From positions 1-16,322 of the forward strand of contig JAAFHD010000032.1 of assembly GCA_013298245.1 (NCBI GenBank): a DNA stretch of 16,322 bases, written 5' to 3'. Positions 3,115 to 14,795 of the stretch are shown here, piece by piece. How positions within the stretch are numbered: the stretch's first letter is position 1; each line of letters opens with the position of its first letter. The stretch is from Alphaproteobacteria bacterium (GTDB lineage: Bacteria; Pseudomonadota; Alphaproteobacteria; Acetobacterales; Acetobacteraceae). Both the position numbers and the translations under genes were made by a program. The notes beneath the pieces are model-generated. The model was given only the letters and a program-made list of their open reading frames with translations. It was not told the origin of the DNA and searched no databases.

Positions 3115-4272
3115 ATGCAGACCATCGTCTCGCCACGCCATATGCTGATCGGCGGCGGCAGCGTCGCGCGCACCGCGGAAACCCTGGCAGCACTTGGGCT
3201 GTCGCGCCCCTTCGTCGTGACCGATCCGTGGATGGTTTCAAGCGCAACCATCAACCGCTGCCTCGACCCGCTAACGCGCGCGGGGCTTGCGCACCGCGTC
3301 TTCAGCGACACCGTCCCCGACCCCACCGACACCGTGGTCGAAGCCGGCGTCGCCGCGTTCAAGGCAGGCGATCACGACTGCATCATCGGCTTCGGCGGCG
3401 GCTCGCCGATGGACACCGCCAAGGCCATCGCCATCCTCGCCGCCACCGGTGGCCACATCAGCGCACAAAAAGTGCCGCACGCCGCCGACCGCGCCGCGGT
3501 GCCGCTGATCTGCATCCCCACCACCGCCGGCACCGGCTCCGAGGCCACGCGCTTCACCGTCATCACCGACAGCGCGCGCGACGAAAAGATGCTGATCGCC
3601 GGCCTCGGCGCGCTGCCCTTGGCCGCGATCGTCGACTACGAACTGACGCTGACGGTGCCGCCGCGCACCACCGCCGATACCGGCATCGACAGCTTCACGC
3701 ACGCTTTGGAGGCCTATGTCTCCAAGCGCGCCAACCCGGTCGCTGACATGTTCGCCGAACGCGCGATGCGCCTGATCGGCCCGAACCTGCGCGCCGTGTA
3801 CCACCAGCCCGACAACCGCGCGGCGCGCGAGGCGATGATGCTGGGCGCCACGCTGGCGGGCCTGGCCTTCAGCAATTCATCGGTGGCGCTGGTGCATGGC
3901 ATGTCGCGCCCAATCGGCGCGCATTTCCATGTGCCGCACGGGCTGTCCAACGCGATGCTGCTGCCGGCGGTGACGCGCTATTCGCTGGGGGCTGCGCTGC
4001 CGCGATACGCCGAAGCCGCGCGCTGCATGGGCTGCGCCGCACCCGGCGATGCGGACCAGGTGGCGGGTGCGAAACTGCTGGACGAACTCTCGGCATTGAA
4101 CGCGGAATTGAAGGTGCCGACGCCGGCGGCCTACGGCATTGATGCCGACCGCTGGAACGGCTTGCTGCCGACCATGGCGGCGCAGGCGCTGGCCAGCGGC
4201 AGCCCGAACAACAACCCTGCGGTGCCGGACGCCGATGCGATCATGGCGCTGTATCGGGAGTGTTTCGGGTAG
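3115..4272 (+). CDS. Iron-containing (type III) alcohol dehydrogenase
   Basis: NAD(P)-dependent oxidoreductase interconverting an alcohol and an aldehyde or ketone in the cytoplasm; 385 residues, the usual family length. Seen: the nucleotide-binding GFGGGSPMD motif (about 92-100), PTTAGTGSEAT (about 136-145), and the four expected metal ligands Asp192 and His196 (IDSFTHALEAYVS), His261 (ALVHGMS) and His275 (VPHGLSN). Their spacing matches the Fe-ADH family, for example E. coli FucO. The ATG is supported by AGGA at 3105-3108, which overlaps the stop of the upstream ATPase gene and sits six bases from the start. It is the last gene of the plus-strand operon and probably handles a product of the imported compound. 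Maleylacetate reductase is less likely because the GGGSPMD motif fits the general alcohol dehydrogenases better. Confidence 0.93.
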   Translation: MQTIVSPRHMLIGGGSVARTAETLAALGLSRPFVVTDPWMVSSATINRCLDPLTRAGLAHRVFSDTVPDPTDTVVEAGVAAFKAGDHDCIIGFGGGSPMDTAKAIAILAATGGHISAQKVPHAADRAAVPLICIPTTAGTGSEATRFTVITDSARDEKMLIAGLGALPLAAIVDYELTLTVPPRTTADTGIDSFTHALEAYVSKRANPVADMFAERAMRLIGPNLRAVYHQPDNRAAREAMMLGATLAGLAFSNSSVALVHGMSRPIGAHFHVPHGLSNAMLLPAVTRYSLGAALPRYAEAARCMGCAAPGDADQVAGAKLLDELSALNAELKVPTPAAYGIDADRWNGLLPTMAAQALASGSPNNNPAVPDADAIMALYRECFG

Positions 4273-4303
4273 GCTTTCGCTGCCACATCCCAGCCACGCG
4301 TGA

Positions 4304-4329
4304 AGCCGTTTTTTCGATCGAAAGCGGCT
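4304..4329. terminator. Candidate bidirectional terminator hairpin between convergent genes
   Basis: The 57-base gap between two converging genes holds AGCCG (4304-4308) and its reverse complement CGGCT (4325-4329). They enclose a T-rich arm and the self-complementary core TTTCGATCGAAA. The hairpin starts one base beyond the minus-strand stop and about 30 bases beyond the plus-strand stop. Position and symmetry suit a shared terminator; the T-tract lies inside the hairpin rather than after it, so strength is uncertain. Confidence 0.4.
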
Positions 4330-6255
4330 CTACTTCGCCAATCTGGAAAAGCGCCAGCCGGCTTTCGGCATATCCGTGCTCATGGCGAAGGCCAGGAGTA
4401 CTGCCGCGAGCAGCGCGTATGGCAGGATTGGCATGTCGGCACCGATTGCGGTTGACATCGGCACGCCCGGATTGGCCAGGAATGCCAGTCCGAACGCGAA
4501 CTGTGCCAGGGAAAGCCACTGATAGAGATTGAGCTGCGCCCAGCACGGCGTGCGTGGCTCGCCGCGAAATCTCTCCTCCACGAAACGCATCACCGATTGC
4601 AGCATCAGGTAGTTCCCGATGATCATCCCGACCGGCGCCGAGAGCTGGCCCAGCCGCAACTGGATCACGAACAGCGCGAGATTGGCGGCAATCGAATAGA
4701 GCTGCGTCGGATAGATCGGCGTGCACGCAAAGCCCGCCTGCGACACAACGCGCGACGTGGGGTTCCACACGCGAATGCCGTGCGTGCCGCCGCCTGTCGG
4801 CCTGCCGTGACAGCAGCCCTGGACGATGCATCGCAGCCGCCCGATGGCCTGTGCGATCGGCGCGGCGATGGCGATGGCGGCGGCGAGCGCGGCACCCCTG
4901 GCGTCCATCGCCCAGAATGTCCCAAGACAGAGCGCTGCGCCGATGCAGAAGCCGAAATATCCGAAGGGCCGGGCGGTCTTGTCCTGGGCTTCGATCAGAT
5001 AGCCCCACAGCGCCGCCGCGACGACCGAAATGGTCAGGAAGAGCAGGAAATGGGGTGCGACCGCGGTGCCCGCGAAGCCCAGCACCACGGCAGTGCCCAC
5101 ACCGGCGGCCAATGCGCTCCATATGGCGTGGCTGAAGATGCGGAACGGCCCGATCGCCACCGAAGAGATTGAATTCGCCAGGCCTTCGCATGCGCTTTGG
5201 GCCTGCCGCCAGATCGCCGCGTGATGCCATGCCACCAGCGCCAGCAGCCAGCCGGCCAACACATCCAGGATGGCATGCGCGTCGAGCGACAAGCAGGCAA
5301 ACGCGACGGCCAGGGAGACACCGTGCCAGAGCCAAGCCAGCCGCGGCCATCGCAGCGCCAGGCACGACGAAGCCAGCACAGTCCAGGCGACATGAAAGGA
5401 TGGCAGCGCCAGCCATGGCGCATCGACATAGGCGTTCCAACCCATCAACTCGCCGGTGACGCCATTGAAGGCATTGGGCGCGAAAGCGTGAACGCCAGGC
5501 AGCAGCAGCATCGTAGAAAAGCCCAGGACAGTCGCGATCCAGGCCGCGCGGAAGAACCGCCGCAGGCTCGTCGCATCGCCAAGCAACATGGGGCCGATCA
5601 CCGCGTAGCCATAGGCTGCGGAGTAGACCCAGACCGCCCCGGCATGGCTTGGCAACCCGATGTCGAGCAGCGAGCGCCAGATGATCGCGCCGCTTGGCGT
5701 CGGCGCTGTCGCGAACAAGGTGTAGAGCACGGCCCAGGAGCCAAGGGTTGCGATGCAAAGCCAGGCGCGTTGCCACAACGGCACGGCAAACCCCGACTCT
5801 TCCGGCAGGCCGAGGATCCGCCGCGAAGCGATCGTTCCGAAGCGCGCAGCCAGTGCTGGCGCTTCATACCCCAGTACCAGCGCGGCAGAGGCCAGGCACG
5901 CCATGGGCGCGACATACCAGAAGCCCGCAGGCGAGCCCGCGAGTGCAGCCGCCCCGAATGCGAGCATGCCGAAGCCGACATAGATCGGGTGCGCCATCCA
6001 GCCATAGACCGCGCCGGTGACATAGCCCGTCGTCGGGTAGGCATTCATCGGCAGGCCGCCGCCCAGCCGGACCAGCGCAATCCAGCCGGCCATCATGATG
6101 GCCGCGCCGGCGGCGAACAGGGCAAACGCCAGGATGGGATCGATGGGCACCGGCCAGGTGACGAAGCCGCTGGCATCGATGCGCAGCGCGCAGATCACCA
6201 GGATTGCCGGCCACATCACCACGAAGAGCGCGCCGTAGAGGAATTTGCCTAGCAT
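4330..6255 (-). CDS. Multidomain membrane protein: PEMT/ICMT-like + PAP2-like + Lgt-like modules
   Basis: A 641-residue integral membrane protein, hydrophobic nearly throughout. Three modules can be read. Residues about 70-145 carry a GAVYGWMAHPIYVGFG segment and a later GYEAPALAARFG, resembling isoprenylcysteine/phospholipid methyltransferases (HPxYxG, then E..L...FG). Residues about 195-345 carry LPSFHVAWT (284-292) and SLDAHAILDVLAG (323-335), the PSxH and HxxxD motifs of PAP2/inositolphosphotransferase-type phosphatases. Residues about 385-595 resemble prolipoprotein diacylglyceryl transferase: GRLRCIVQGCCHGRPT (472-487, with Arg473 matching the Lgt GRxxN arginine) and YPTQLYS (515-521). 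The Lgt catalytic-region His appears replaced (GYFGFCIG where Lgt has SFHGGLIG), so it is probably a paralogue and not the essential Lgt. The ATG lies four bases after the stop of the 251-residue gene, implying co-translation. Membrane-lipid modification is inferred; no exact function can be stated. Confidence 0.85.
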   Translation of the reverse strand: MLGKFLYGALFVVMWPAILVICALRIDASGFVTWPVPIDPILAFALFAAGAAIMMAGWIALVRLGGGLPMNAYPTTGYVTGAVYGWMAHPIYVGFGMLAFGAAALAGSPAGFWYVAPMACLASAALVLGYEAPALAARFGTIASRRILGLPEESGFAVPLWQRAWLCIATLGSWAVLYTLFATAPTPSGAIIWRSLLDIGLPSHAGAVWVYSAAYGYAVIGPMLLGDATSLRRFFRAAWIATVLGFSTMLLLPGVHAFAPNAFNGVTGELMGWNAYVDAPWLALPSFHVAWTVLASSCLALRWPRLAWLWHGVSLAVAFACLSLDAHAILDVLAGWLLALVAWHHAAIWRQAQSACEGLANSISSVAIGPFRIFSHAIWSALAAGVGTAVVLGFAGTAVAPHFLLFLTISVVAAALWGYLIEAQDKTARPFGYFGFCIGAALCLGTFWAMDARGAALAAAIAIAAPIAQAIGRLRCIVQGCCHGRPTGGGTHGIRVWNPTSRVVSQAGFACTPIYPTQLYSIAANLALFVIQLRLGQLSAPVGMIIGNYLMLQSVMRFVEERFRGEPRTPCWAQLNLYQWLSLAQFAFGLAFLANPGVPMSTAIGADMPILPYALLAAVLLAFAMSTDMPKAGWRFSRLAK

Positions 6256-6259
6256 CGTG

Positions 6260-7015
6260 TCATTGGTCCCACAGGACGTCCTCGAACAGCACGTCGCCGT
6301 CCTCGATCAACCCGTCGGCCATGCGCAATTGGCCGCGGCCGACATATTTGCGTTCATGTCCGGCGAGGAAGCGCAAAGGTCGCATGCGACGCGGCCAGGG
6401 CATGTCCTGCAACAGGCCCGAACCCAGGCGCGCATCGACAAACAGCCGGGCGCCTTCAATGTCCAGCCGGGCACCGGCGACGGTCACGCTCTCGGCGGTG
6501 ATGGTTTCCAGGCTGGTTTCGCGCCCGTTGAGCAGTGCGCGCGCGACCGGAATCTCGCCGAGCCACTGCACCCATGTCAGCGACGAATTGCGGCCGCAGA
6601 AACGGCCCCACCGCAAGACCTTGATGCCGAGACGCCACGGCGCGACCCGCAACACCAGGCGTTCCGCATAGCCGATGGCGCCGTGCGACAGGCCAGGCCC
6701 TGTCACGCGTCCTGCCGGCACAAGGACATCCCATTCGACCGCGTTTCCAAGTCCATCGGCGAGATGCAGCGGACGCGATGATGCGCCGTCCCAGCGGTAG
6801 CGCTGACCGCGATGCGGCCAAACGACATGGCTGCCGTCGCGGTGAGGCAGGGCTTGGCGATCGAGCGTGAACCGGCCTGCGCCTGGTGCGGACGCCATGT
6901 GCCCGCCCTCGAAGGAGATCACCGCGGAGCCTGCGCGCAGCGCTGCCTTGTAGAGGATGTTGGGGCCGGATGCGTCGATCCAGTCGCCGTACCATTTTTC
7001 GAGAAGGAGCGGCAT
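6260..7015 (-). CDS. Uncharacterised 251-residue protein, operon partner of the multidomain membrane protein
   Basis: I do not recognise the family with confidence. The protein is soluble-looking, with no signal peptide or membrane segment, and rich in Trp, Arg and Gly. It has alternating hydrophobic patterns suggesting a beta-rich fold. Visible landmarks are an N-terminal EKWYGDWIDASG, a GYAERL segment, LRWGRFCGRNSSLTW in the middle and an acidic C-terminus ending FEDVLWDQ. The GYAERL/RWGRF spacing is loosely reminiscent of lipocalin-like hydroxyneurosporene-synthase/CrtC or AttH-type proteins, a weak impression only. The gene ends four bases before the start of the PEMT/PAP2/Lgt-like gene, so the two are almost certainly translated together. 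The upstream 157 bases to the tRNA hold no ORF I trust and no clear promoter. Confidence 0.75.
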   Translation of the reverse strand: MPLLLEKWYGDWIDASGPNILYKAALRAGSAVISFEGGHMASAPGAGRFTLDRQALPHRDGSHVVWPHRGQRYRWDGASSRPLHLADGLGNAVEWDVLVPAGRVTGPGLSHGAIGYAERLVLRVAPWRLGIKVLRWGRFCGRNSSLTWVQWLGEIPVARALLNGRETSLETITAESVTVAGARLDIEGARLFVDARLGSGLLQDMPWPRRMRPLRFLAGHERKYVGRGQLRMADGLIEDGDVLFEDVLWDQ

Positions 7016-7172
7016 GTCACGGAACCTGGGGCGGCGCTGGGAAATGGACGCTATATCCTGGCAGGAAGCGCATCCTGGGGCATCAGTGTTCTTGGCGCGA
7101 CGCCGATTTTCTGCCGATCGCGATGCGGGACGGATCGCGCGGAACAGGCGGAACTGTGTGGCTTGATTGGAA

Positions 7173-7248
7173 TGGTGCCCGGGGCCGGAATCGAACCAGC
7201 GACACTGCGATTTTCAGTCGCATGCTCTACCAACTGAGCTACCCGGGC
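7173..7248 (-). tRNA. tRNA-Phe (GAA)
   Basis: Reading the minus strand gives a full cloverleaf of 76 bases including an encoded CCA (TGG at 7173-7175 on the plus strand). The acceptor stem GCCCGGG pairs perfectly with CCCGGGC, with A as the discriminator. The D-arm reads TAGCTCAGTTGGTAGAGC. The anticodon stem TGCGA/TCGCA encloses the loop CTGAAAA, giving anticodon GAA (7213-7215). The T-arm has the standard GGTTCGATTCC. It lies between the quinone oxidoreductase gene and the 251-residue gene, all on the minus strand. Confidence 0.97.
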
Positions 7249-7267
7249 AGAACGGTTGAGATAGCGA

Positions 7268-7283
7268 ACAGGCCTTCCCCTGT
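7268..7283 (-). terminator. Weak hairpin after the quinone oxidoreductase gene
   Basis: ACAGG (7268-7272) and CCTGT (7279-7283) form a 5-bp stem with a 6-base loop. It lies just beyond the oxidoreductase stop (7289-7291) and before the tRNA. No T-run follows on the minus strand, so a terminator role is only a suggestion. Confidence 0.2.
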
Positions 7284-7288
7284 CCAGC

Positions 7289-8266
7289 CTACCCCACCCG
7301 CATCGCGATCTTTCCGAAGTGCTGGTTCGCCTTCATATGCGCCAGCGCGTCACGCACATCATCCAGCGCAAACACCCGGTCCAGCGGCAGCCCCAGCACG
7401 CCCGATTCGACAGCGCCCCACAGATCCTCGCGCATCAACCGCACGATCTCCCGCACCTCCGCGTTGGAGCGCGTGCGGAAGGTCACGCCGATATAGCTGA
7501 TACGCCGCGCCGCATGCGTGTCGAAGTCGAACTCCGCGCGCATTCCGGCAAGCCGCCCAACATTCACGATGCGCCCCAGCACCGCGGTCGCCCCCAGCGC
7601 CTGCGACGTCACCGCGCCCGACAACTGGTCCACGACGGATTCGACACCCTTGCCATCGGTCGCATCCAGCACCTGCGCCACCCAGCCAGGGTCGTTCGTA
7701 TCCACCACATGCGTGGCGCCGAATTCCTTCAGCCGCGCGCGTTTCTCGGCGTTGGTCGAAGTGCCGACAATCACCTTCGCACCCTTCAACCGCGCGATCT
7801 GCAGCGCCATCAGCCCGACGCCGGATGATGCGCCCAGGATCATGATCGACCCGCCCTCGCGCACTTGGCCCTGCGTGACGACGGCGTTGTGCATGGTCTG
7901 CAACGCGACGGGCAACGTCGCGGCCACTTCCCACGCCATGTTGCTGTCCGGCACCGGGTTCACCCGCGCCCAATCGGCCAGCGCATACTCGGCATAGGCG
8001 CTGCCCATCGCACCCATCACCCGCATGCCTGGCACGATGTGGTCAGGCACGCCTGGGCCGCATTCAACGATCTCGCCCGCACCCTCCAGGCCCGGAATGG
8101 CGCCCGCGCCACCCACCGCGCCATGCATATGGCCCGATGCAATGCCCAGATCCGCGCGGTTCAGCCCGATCGCGCGCAGCCGCACCAGCACCTGGTCCGC
8201 CCCGGGCCTGGGCACCGGCACATCCTGGATGGAGACGCCATTGGCGCCGACAACCGCGGCCTTCAT
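7289..8266 (-). CDS. NADPH:quinone oxidoreductase-type medium-chain dehydrogenase
   Basis: Cytoplasmic MDR-superfamily oxidoreductase of 325 residues, normal for the quinone oxidoreductase branch (QOR/crotonyl-CoA reductase-like), which reduces quinones or enones with NADPH. The N-terminal GroES-like domain shows VPVPRPGADQVLVRL and GLNRADL (about 35-40), followed by PGLEGAGEI (58-66). The Rossmann nucleotide motif is ILGASSGVGLMALQIA (143-158). The Cys/His zinc ligands of classical alcohol dehydrogenases are absent, so the protein is zinc-independent. The ATG at 8264-8266 shares bases with the TGA of the upstream OmpA-like gene (ATGA), so translation is coupled to it. The physiological substrate is not evident from the sequence. 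Confidence 0.92.
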   Translation of the reverse strand: MKAAVVGANGVSIQDVPVPRPGADQVLVRLRAIGLNRADLGIASGHMHGAVGGAGAIPGLEGAGEIVECGPGVPDHIVPGMRVMGAMGSAYAEYALADWARVNPVPDSNMAWEVAATLPVALQTMHNAVVTQGQVREGGSIMILGASSGVGLMALQIARLKGAKVIVGTSTNAEKRARLKEFGATHVVDTNDPGWVAQVLDATDGKGVESVVDQLSGAVTSQALGATAVLGRIVNVGRLAGMRAEFDFDTHAARRISYIGVTFRTRSNAEVREIVRLMREDLWGAVESGVLGLPLDRVFALDDVRDALAHMKANQHFGKIAMRVG

Positions 8267-12916: not shown

Positions 12917-12931
12917 GCACAGAAGCTGTGC
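12917..12931. promoter_or_regulatory. Candidate operator GCACAG-AAG-CTGTGC
   Basis: A 15-base inverted repeat with perfect 6-base arms (12917-12922, 12926-12931) and a 3-base centre, near the middle of the divergent gap and about 48 bases before the deacetylase ATG. Compact symmetry with a short odd spacer is typical of dimeric repressor sites such as those of GntR or LacI families. No such regulator is encoded in the window. Confidence 0.4.
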
Positions 12932-12978
12932 TCATCGCGCGCCGCGTGCGACGCTTTGCGTGCAACGCGGAGAACACC

Positions 12979-13923
12979 ATGGCCCTGCACAGCAGCGCCG
13001 GCGCGCCGGAAGGCCCCTTGCTCGCCGAGCCTGGGCATTACGACTACGCGCCTTATCGCGGCCGCCCGCGCATTGCCTGGCCGGGCGGCGCGCGCATCGC
13101 CGTCTGGGTGGTGCCGAATATCGAGCATTACGAACTCGACCCGCCGATCAACCCACGCCGCGGTGGCTGGCCGCGCCCGACGCCCGATGTGCTGGCCTAT
13201 TCCTGGCGCGACTATGGCAATCGCGCCGGCTTCGACCGGATGGCTGATGTCATGGCGCGGCATGGCGTGCGCGGCAGCGTCTCCCTGAACGTCGCGGTGT
13301 GCGACATGTTCCCCGACATCATCGCGCGCTGCTGCGAGCTGGGCTGGGAGCTGTTCAGCCATGGCGTCTACAACACGCGCTACATGTACGGCATGGACGA
13401 GGCGCAGCAGCGCGCGCTGATCGCCGATGTGCGGAACACGATCTTCCGCGCCTCCGGCCAGCGGCTGGATGGGTGGCTTTCGCCCGCGCTGTCCAATGAC
13501 GAAACCACGCAGCATATCCTGGCGGAGGAGGGCATCCTCTACACGCTCGACATGCTGCATGACGACCAGCCGATGCCGGTGCGCACGCGATCCGGTCGGC
13601 CGCTGATCAGCATTCCCTATTCGCTCGAGACCAATGACGTGCCGAATTTCGTACTCCGCAACGCCACAGCCGATGAATGGGCGGAACTGGTGCTGGCGCA
13701 GTTCGAACAGCTGCGCGCGGAGGGCGGGACGGTGCTGTGCCTGCCGATCCACCCCTACATCATCGGCGCGCCGCACCGCATCGGCGCGCTGGACCGCGTG
13801 CTGGCGCATATCGCAGCCCAGCCGGATGTGTGGCTCGCCACGGGGCGCGAAATCGCGCGGCACTTCATCGACCATCACCTGGCGGAATTCGACGCCTGGA
13901 TCGCCGCGGGCACACCGGCATGA
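12979..13923 (+). CDS. PuuE-like polysaccharide deacetylase family protein (first copy)
   Basis: Cytoplasmic NodB-fold hydrolase of 314 residues, in the branch containing the allantoinase PuuE. That branch acts on small amides or ureides rather than polymers. The start at 12979 is supported by GGAG at 12969-12972; a GTG 17 codons upstream would add an Arg-rich tail with no family match. Seen: YSWRDYGNR (74-82), SLNVAVCDMFPD (102-113), the GWELFSHGVYNTRYMYG block with His128, GWLSPALSNDETT (165-177), a DMLHDDQPMPV segment (191-201), and LCLPIHPYIIGAPHR with His258 (253-267). Both conserved histidines of the branch are present, so the enzyme is probably active. Its stop overlaps the start of a paralogue by four bases. 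The exact substrate cannot be told; allantoin itself is only one possibility. Confidence 0.9.
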   Translation: MALHSSAGAPEGPLLAEPGHYDYAPYRGRPRIAWPGGARIAVWVVPNIEHYELDPPINPRRGGWPRPTPDVLAYSWRDYGNRAGFDRMADVMARHGVRGSVSLNVAVCDMFPDIIARCCELGWELFSHGVYNTRYMYGMDEAQQRALIADVRNTIFRASGQRLDGWLSPALSNDETTQHILAEEGILYTLDMLHDDQPMPVRTRSGRPLISIPYSLETNDVPNFVLRNATADEWAELVLAQFEQLRAEGGTVLCLPIHPYIIGAPHRIGALDRVLAHIAAQPDVWLATGREIARHFIDHHLAEFDAWIAAGTPA

Positions 13924-14795
13924 CGCTCGATCCGCGATACCTGGAATACCCGTCGCGCGGGGCGCGCCTGGACCATGGCCGCTTCGCGCATCGCCGCCCG
14001 CCACCGCGCGCGGCATGGCACGGCCTTGGTCTGTGGATCGTGGTGCCGGTGCAGCATTTCCCCATGGACATGCCGCGCGGGCCGGTGGCGATTCCGGGCG
14101 GCATGGAACGGCCCTATCCGTCCTATTGGGACTACACGCAGCGCGATTACGGCAATCGCGTCGGCATCTACCGCATTATGCGCGCGTTGGACGAACGCGG
14201 CCTGCGCGCGACCGCCGCTGTCAGCGGTTGCATCCCTGGCCGCTACCCTGCGCTCGTCGCCGATATCGCCGCGCGCGAATGGGAGGTGATGGCCGCCGGT
14301 TGGGACATGGGCCAGGCGCTGCACAGCGCGCGGCCCGAAGCGGAGGAGCGAGGGCTTATTCTTCGCACGCGCAACGCGTTGGCCGCCGCTTTCGGCACCG
14401 CGCCGCACGGCTGGCATTCGCCCGGCCATTCGCAATCCGCCGTCACGCCCGACCTGCTGGCCGAGGCCGGCTTCACCTGGTGCGCAGACTGGATCAATGA
14501 CGACTTGCCCTTCGCCATGACCACGCGTGCCGGGCCGCTGATGAACCTGCCCATGGCCTGGGAACTCTCGGATCGTCGCTGCCTGTTCGAACAGCAGCAG
14601 ACCACCGCGCAATTCTGCTGCCAGATCGCAGATGCTGCCGCGCGGCTGCGTGACGAAGATGGGCGCGTGCTGACCCTGATGCTGACGCCCTGGGTGATGG
14701 GCCAGGCGCATCGCTATCGCGCCATGTGCGGGCTGCTGGACGCGTTGATGGAGTTGCGGCCCGCGCTGCTGACGGGGGAGATGCTCGCCGCCTGA
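13920..14795 (+). CDS. PuuE-like polysaccharide deacetylase family protein (second copy, likely degenerate active site)
   Basis: Paralogue of the preceding gene, 291 residues, starting at the ATG that overlaps its stop (ATGA). It keeps the family scaffold: YTQRDYGNRVG (72-82), GWHSPGHSQSAVTP (164-177), a DWINDDLPFAM segment (190-200) that parallels DMLHDDQPMPV, and LMNLPMAWEL (207-216). The block that reads SHG in the first copy is AAG here (125-127), and IHPY is LTPW (255-258), so both conserved histidines are replaced by Ala and Thr. A His-rich HSPGHS is present nearby and could partly compensate. It may be a non-catalytic partner of the first copy, or act on a different substrate. No signal peptide is seen. 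Confidence 0.87.
   Translation: MTLDPRYLEYPSRGARLDHGRFAHRRPPPRAAWHGLGLWIVVPVQHFPMDMPRGPVAIPGGMERPYPSYWDYTQRDYGNRVGIYRIMRALDERGLRATAAVSGCIPGRYPALVADIAAREWEVMAAGWDMGQALHSARPEAEERGLILRTRNALAAAFGTAPHGWHSPGHSQSAVTPDLLAEAGFTWCADWINDDLPFAMTTRAGPLMNLPMAWELSDRRCLFEQQQTTAQFCCQIADAAARLRDEDGRVLTLMLTPWVMGQAHRYRAMCGLLDALMELRPALLTGEMLAA

Follow-up and report, generated by a model that had tools for sequence, protein, structure and literature searches.

A conserved fusion of methyltransferase-, PAP2- and Lgt-like modules, with a predicted inverted Lgt-like module and a conserved partner gene

Methyltransferases of the PEMT and ICMT families carry an HPxY motif and a downstream glutamate that have a role in the binding of S-adenosylmethionine (SAM), which is cytosolic. 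In PAP2 proteins, KX6RP and the SR of the third motif are phosphatase motifs. Proteins of the CrtC/AttH-type double-lipocalin fold act on polycyclic or prenylated compounds. For the prolipoprotein diacylglyceryl transferase Lgt of Escherichia coli, a published study describes mutants of H103 (of the HGGL motif) and of E151 as inactive, and describes as phospholipid-binding the arginines that are retained in the protein analysed below (PMC4728403). Here we analyse a gene whose product joins modules resembling a methyltransferase, a PAP2 enzyme and Lgt, together with its upstream neighbour, c1. Both lie in a stretch of 16,322 nucleotides, hereafter the window (contig JAAFHD010000032.1, assembly GCA_013298245.1, from a member of the Acetobacteraceae).

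The product is a true, conserved fusion of three lipid-enzyme-like modules (Table 1). A preliminary description of this DNA had reported a single uninterrupted frame of 641 residues with characteristic motifs, without giving its strand. All of these motifs are present, on the minus strand: HPIYVG at residues 89-94 (HPxY at 89-92, bases 5980-5991), PSFH at 285-288 (bases 5392-5403) followed by H327-x3-D331 (bases 5263-5277), GRLRCIVQGCCHGRPT at 472-487 (within it GRLRCIVQGCCHG at 472-484, bases 4804-4842) and YPTQLY at 515-520. A further pair of basic residues of the third module, R557 and R564, is encoded by bases 4564-4587. We scanned the protein with Pfam and compared each score with the curated cut-off of the family. 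The LGT match (residues 369-593, E 3.9e-19, 69.4 bits) is well over its cut-off of 24.9, whereas those of PAP2_3 (residues 209-343, E 1.9e-4, 21.7 bits, cut-off 27) and PEMT (E 2.2e-4, 22.0 bits, cut-off 25) are under theirs, as is the ICMT score (16.1, cut-off 24). The assignments are firmer in the relatives. A database search yielded 653 relatives at E ≤ 0.001 from 7,997 scored candidates, and 111 of the 120 listed have HPxY, P[SA]FH and GCC[HY]G together. In all 34 relatives that we selected among these 120 and aligned, LGT, PAP2_3 and PEMT were each matched at E ≤ 0.01 (best values 1e-22, 4.7e-19 and 1.3e-12, respectively). Hence, the fusion is not an assembly artefact, and a sequencing error or a misjoin of separate genes is ruled out. 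The AlphaFold2 model (predicted local distance difference test, pLDDT, 89.8; predicted template modelling score, pTM, 0.91) has 18 membrane helices, counted by inspection. Its fold matches recovered two of the three expected folds, i.e., Lgt for the third module and PAP2 for the second, which also has the H-H-D triad. Sequence searches of the PDB matched only AUR1 and YodM with the fusion profile, and gave no match with the single protein.

The Lgt-like module retains some of the key residues of Lgt and has replaced others. We used two sets of alignment rows, 117 from three-domain proteins and 59 from a two-domain form of ~460 residues. In the former, R473, R557, E561 and R564 (R143, R239, E243 and R246 of Lgt) are invariant. 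The equivalents of R143, R239 and R246, as well as a C-x4-C-C-H cluster, are invariant in both sets. The position of H103 is occupied by Y, F or W (80, 35 and 2 rows), that of E151 by C in all 117 rows, and that of N146 is also replaced. The preliminary description had suggested glyceryl transfer; a transfer of the kind that matures lipoproteins is not supported, given these replacements and the separate canonical Lgt encoded in this genome. The NCBIfam models for Lgt scored far under their cut-offs (49.9 bits for 334, and 31.1 for 118.9). In a tree with stand-alone Lgts, built after the exclusion of L136, L142 and L151, the fusion modules form their own clade on a branch of length 1.65. A second LGT match was found in 30 of the 32 hosts tested.

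We considered the GCC motif as a hallmark of a new family, and dropped it: in seven Acidobacterial hosts (L118, L121, L122, L123, L124, L131 and L132), the best LGT match, a presumed Lgt, has GRxGC..AGCCxG and is without HGG, N146 and E151, all of which matter in E. coli Lgt. Therefore, loss of N146 and E151 alone cannot exclude transfer to proteins. Since the motif is not specific to the fusion, we entered the GCC-type Lgts as a second control in the analysis of charge polarity.

We predicted the topology with the positive-inside rule, from the net charge of loops over the 117 rows with the N-terminus set in the cytosol; the face of the methyltransferase was fixed as cytosolic because SAM is. 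All loops placed in the cytosol are higher in net charge than their neighbours. The methyltransferase site is then predicted to be cytosolic and the PAP2 site periplasmic. The head domain of the Lgt-like module is predicted to be cytosolic because its side is the more positive one: +4.05, for -0.73 on the opposite side, and higher per residue in 114 of the 117 rows. Two-domain proteins have the same polarity (+3.2 and -0.27, head side higher in 50 of 59). Stand-alone Lgts have the reverse, both those labelled canonical (-4.05 on the head side and +6.05 on the other, 19 rows) and those labelled GCC (-2.88 and +5.53, 17 rows), and none of these 36 rows is head-positive. The labels were given by simple patterns, so that one "canonical" protein (L134) groups outside the canonical clade; three GCC proteins (L127, L141 and L149) and the unlabelled L137 were left out of the scoring. 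The segment at residues 345-376 is not hydrophobic (mean -0.25), and thus no helix is evident there that would restore the usual orientation of Lgt. The additional C-terminal helix comprises residues 610-626 of the model, and the tail at 624-641 has a mean net charge of +1.62 over the 117 rows. From these charge patterns, the Lgt-like module is probably inverted in the membrane relative to real Lgt.

The methyltransferase module keeps P90, Y92 and E131 in all 117 rows and H89 in 116. The PAP2 module is more variable. The SR of the third motif was not found, and position 321 is C, S or T in all rows. KX6RP is absent from the window protein; an RP-like motif at 249-266 is present in 43 rows, the window protein not being one of them. 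The H-H-D triad is incomplete in eight of the 117 rows, with the other core residues checked being retained. The PAP2 model matches only one of the 59 two-domain rows, which shows that this module is optional within the family. The preliminary description had proposed sequential chemistry on one lipid. Membrane-lipid chemistry is supported, and the fusion is very likely a lipid-modifying enzyme. A single chain of reactions on one lipid is not supported as proposed, given a PAP2 site predicted on the periplasmic face, opposite to the other two sites, and a module that is missing or has an incomplete triad in some relatives.

Of 81 loci, 80 have the gene c1 directly upstream of the fusion; in the other one, 96 bases are present upstream. 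The profile search for c1 gave 79 loci, and L059, an outlier that arose from another Lgt encoded on its contig, makes 80. Clustering of open reading frames (ORFs) placed c1 in 50 loci, of which 48 belong to the 73 where the fusion ORF was called. That c1 and the fusion are a conserved gene pair is practically certain. The model of c1 (pLDDT 94.1) matches double lipocalins of the CrtC/AttH type. The window c1 matched no Pfam family, 37 members had only single matches to unrelated families (E 0.013 or worse), and a search of the PDB with the c1 profile gave no match. The protein is presumably soluble and cytosolic. By eye, one 404-residue protein (P0134, on a contig of 66,819 bases) has the C-terminal part of c1 joined directly to the Lgt-like module, without methyltransferase or PAP2, and might be a natural fusion of both partners. 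A wider operon was considered and rejected: in the clustered loci, the neighbours besides c1 are heterogeneous (ten were scanned), and only a UbiA-type gene recurs.

A scan with two peptide patterns across genome contigs from 84,980 species gave 241 stretches that encode a relative, and we kept the best 80. Grouped by record titles, these 80 cover about ten phyla. The hosts include Alpha-, Beta- and Gammaproteobacteria, Bacteroidota, Acidobacteriota, Planctomycetota, Verrucomicrobiota, Myxococcota, Zixibacteria, Ignavibacteria, Calditrichia and Neomarinimicrobiota. Chitinophaga hostae and Minicystis rosea are cultivated hosts. The gene is rare. Among 349 genomes of a Proteobacterial sample, the only one with a match was the genome of the window itself (two-domain query P0188, E ≤ 1e-20). 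A Bacteroidota sample had matches in seven of 296 genomes (query P0202), at least four of them known hosts, with all frames of three-domain length. This genome is also the only one with the fusion in a set of 60 related genomes, and none of eight congeners has it. No relative was found in viral contigs, P0001 matched nothing in plasmids, and P0202 matched nothing in phages or plasmids.

Most likely, the two genes form an inner-leaflet lipid-modifying pair and not a lipoprotein-maturation enzyme. We infer that c1, the methyltransferase and the inverted Lgt-like module form a core unit at the cytosolic face, with PAP2 on the opposite one. The best explanation, which we put forward tentatively, is a two-gene system in which c1 would provide or convert a hydrophobic small molecule on which the membrane enzyme would act at the inner leaflet. 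The active-site cavity of the upside-down Lgt-like module would open toward the cytosol. A phospholipid would be held by R473 and R557; we favour it as donor because the phospholipid-binding arginines are retained. A diacylglyceryl-type group would then pass to an acceptor near the invariant C476/C481-C482-H483 cluster. This acceptor would not be a peptide, since the residue on the lipobox side is gone and the site is predicted to face the cytosol. The methyltransferase, on the same face, may methylate the acceptor or the product, and PAP2 might remove or exchange a phosphoryl head group after the lipid flips, as an optional finishing step. Transfer of this group to a small acceptor, with methylation as the subsequent step, is a conjecture, perhaps somewhat less than an even guess, and both the target of methylation and the order of the steps are conjectural. 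With similar reserve, we speculate that an Lgt was turned over on fusing with a SAM methyltransferase, as a phospholipid-cleaving diacylglyceryl-type transferase with its site toward the cytosol, and that with its obligate CrtC-fold partner it makes an undescribed class of methylated membrane lipids, spread over about ten phyla as a portable two-gene cassette.

Several observations weigh against this explanation. The positive-inside rule is statistical, and three of the 117 and nine of the 59 rows do not follow it. One loop on the head side (561-579) has a charge of only +0.15, two of the outer loops carry a slight positive charge (103-111, +0.16; 535-544, +0.02), and the outer loop 249-289 holds 2.18 lysines or arginines per row that are offset only by 3.26 acidic residues. 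Part of the positive charge on the head side may be catalytic. No methyltransferase structure appears in the fold-match lists, where the remaining parts of the model take up the places. The 37 loci that went into the c1 profile are among the 81 searched with it. The fold of c1 and its neighbours also allow for an isoprenoid or meroterpenoid route, where c1 would act on a prenylated substrate in the manner of CrtC or tocopherol cyclase, and PAP2 on prenyl phosphates; the methyltransferase would resemble ICMT or a quinone methyltransferase in its action, and the Lgt-like module would couple the product to a lipid. As noted above, proteins with the predicted fold of c1 act on polycyclic or prenylated compounds, and ICMT was matched by 21 of the 34 relatives at E ≤ 0.01. 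The UbiA-type gene upstream of the pair, confirmed by Pfam in both loci scanned, likewise hints at isoprenoid chemistry. Yet, it occurs in only five of the 73 clustered loci (L036, L050, L069, L071 and L081), all Acidobacterial by record title, and in the four scanned with NCBIfam the nearest models, for generic and geranylgeranylglyceryl-phosphate prenyltransferases, scored far under their cut-offs. The retained arginines bind phospholipid in E. coli Lgt, and we regard the isoprenoid route as unlikely.

A true GCC-type prolipoprotein diacylglyceryl transferase, in normal orientation and fused to two further modules for lipid processing, would agree with the Lgt fold, the four retained key residues, the seven Acidobacterial genomes whose best LGT match is of the GCC type, and the two tested hosts (G407 and G422) that showed no other LGT. 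Against it stand a polarity opposite to that of all the stand-alone Lgts scored, GCC type included, the long branch of the fusion clade, the second LGT match in this genome and in most tested hosts, and the wide miss of the NCBIfam cut-offs, which together make it less probable still. The replaced Lgt signature residues, the incomplete PAP2 triads and the lack of PAP2 in the shorter form could also be explained if these two parts were non-catalytic and merely bound or shielded a lipid for the methyltransferase. This is the least probable reading, as the equivalents of R143, R239 and R246 and the C-x4-C-C-H cluster are invariant in all 117 three-domain and all 59 two-domain rows, which is typical of catalysis.

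Table 1. Positions of the fusion gene, its modules and the adjoining features in the window.
Feature	Positions	Strand	Remarks
Fusion protein	4330..6255	minus	641 residues, ATG start, one uninterrupted 641-codon frame
Module 1, PEMT/ICMT-like SAM methyltransferase	5782..6255	minus	residues 1-158; Pfam PEMT 41-140
Module 2, PAP2 fold, AUR1/LpxE-like	5209..5778	minus	residues 160-349
Module 3, Lgt-fold, predicted inverted	4462..5199	minus	residues 353-598
Extra C-terminal helix and basic tail	4333..4461	minus	residues 599-641, beyond the seven Lgt helices
c1, predicted CrtC/AttH-type double lipocalin	6260..7015	minus	251 residues; ends 4 bases ahead of the fusion start
Strain-specific segment with the gene pair	4273..7161		flanked by tRNA-Phe and a gene for an iron-containing alcohol dehydrogenase
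tRNA-Phe (gaa)	7173..7248	minus	ARAGORN; edge of the strain-specific segment

The pair lies in a strain-specific segment. A congener (G008:C215, L096) aligns to position 4272 and again from 7162, with ~3.1 kilobases of other sequence between; this replacement holds small ORFs, and the tRNA-Phe edge is maybe a variable site in the genus. A mis-binned contig is unlikely, given that the flanks are 76-91% identical to congeners. There was no integrase among the nine window proteins scanned with Pfam, and the direct repeats of at least 14 bases in 4200-7400 included no att-like duplicate of the tRNA end at the opposite edge. An ORF at 6812-7237 on the plus strand, ending in GAGIEPATLRFSVACSTN, overlaps the tRNA-Phe on the opposite strand and is probably spurious. 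Further away, two adjacent genes of the polysaccharide-deacetylase family occupy 12928-14795 on the plus strand (called at 12928-13923 and 13677-14795); the second probably begins later than its called start.

Our searches of an open-access library, which covers neither preprints nor most subscription papers, yielded no description of the fusion protein. The partner gene and the reversed polarity were not part of the preliminary description. If the predicted topology is true, Lgt-type chemistry extends beyond the maturation of lipoproteins in the periplasm, and the turning over of an Lgt fold to serve the cytosolic face was a rare kind of event in evolution. That the fusion is paired in distant phyla with a CrtC-fold protein, itself uncharacterised, points to a membrane lipid not yet recognised, and the fusion, c1 and the inverted module together suggest an undescribed way to make or alter one. 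The invariant residues offer direct mutants for testing function.

Each part of the pair has described counterparts from which it differs. Compared with E. coli Lgt (PDB 5AZB), the fusion module has replaced H103, N146, N149, E151 and E202, and has reversed charge polarity, an extra helix, fused modules and c1 as partner. The stand-alone GCC-type Lgts of Acidobacteria and others (PF01790) share with it the GRxxCxxxGCCxG motif and the absence of HGGL, but they are not fused to these modules, have the opposite polarity in all 17 rows scored and fall across a branch with 100/99 support values from the fusions. The first module has the HPxY and downstream glutamate common to PEMT and ICMT (PF04191, PF04140); unlike those families, it is fused at the N-terminus of a larger protein, carries a conserved GLPM(N/S)xxP block and scores under both Pfam cut-offs in the window protein. 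The second has the fold and the H-H-D catalytic triad of AUR1 inositol phosphorylceramide synthase and LpxE, and, like AUR1, lacks an arginine next to the serine of its third motif on the C-terminal side. Unlike both, it is internal to a fusion, has been lost in some relatives and, in the window protein, has no KX6RP. Finally, the model of c1 resembles the CrtC/AttH-type double lipocalins CghA, Fsa2, Phm7, AttH and 25-phosphosteroid lyase, from which c1 differs in being smaller, in being paired with a membrane enzyme, and in having no Pfam match beyond chance.
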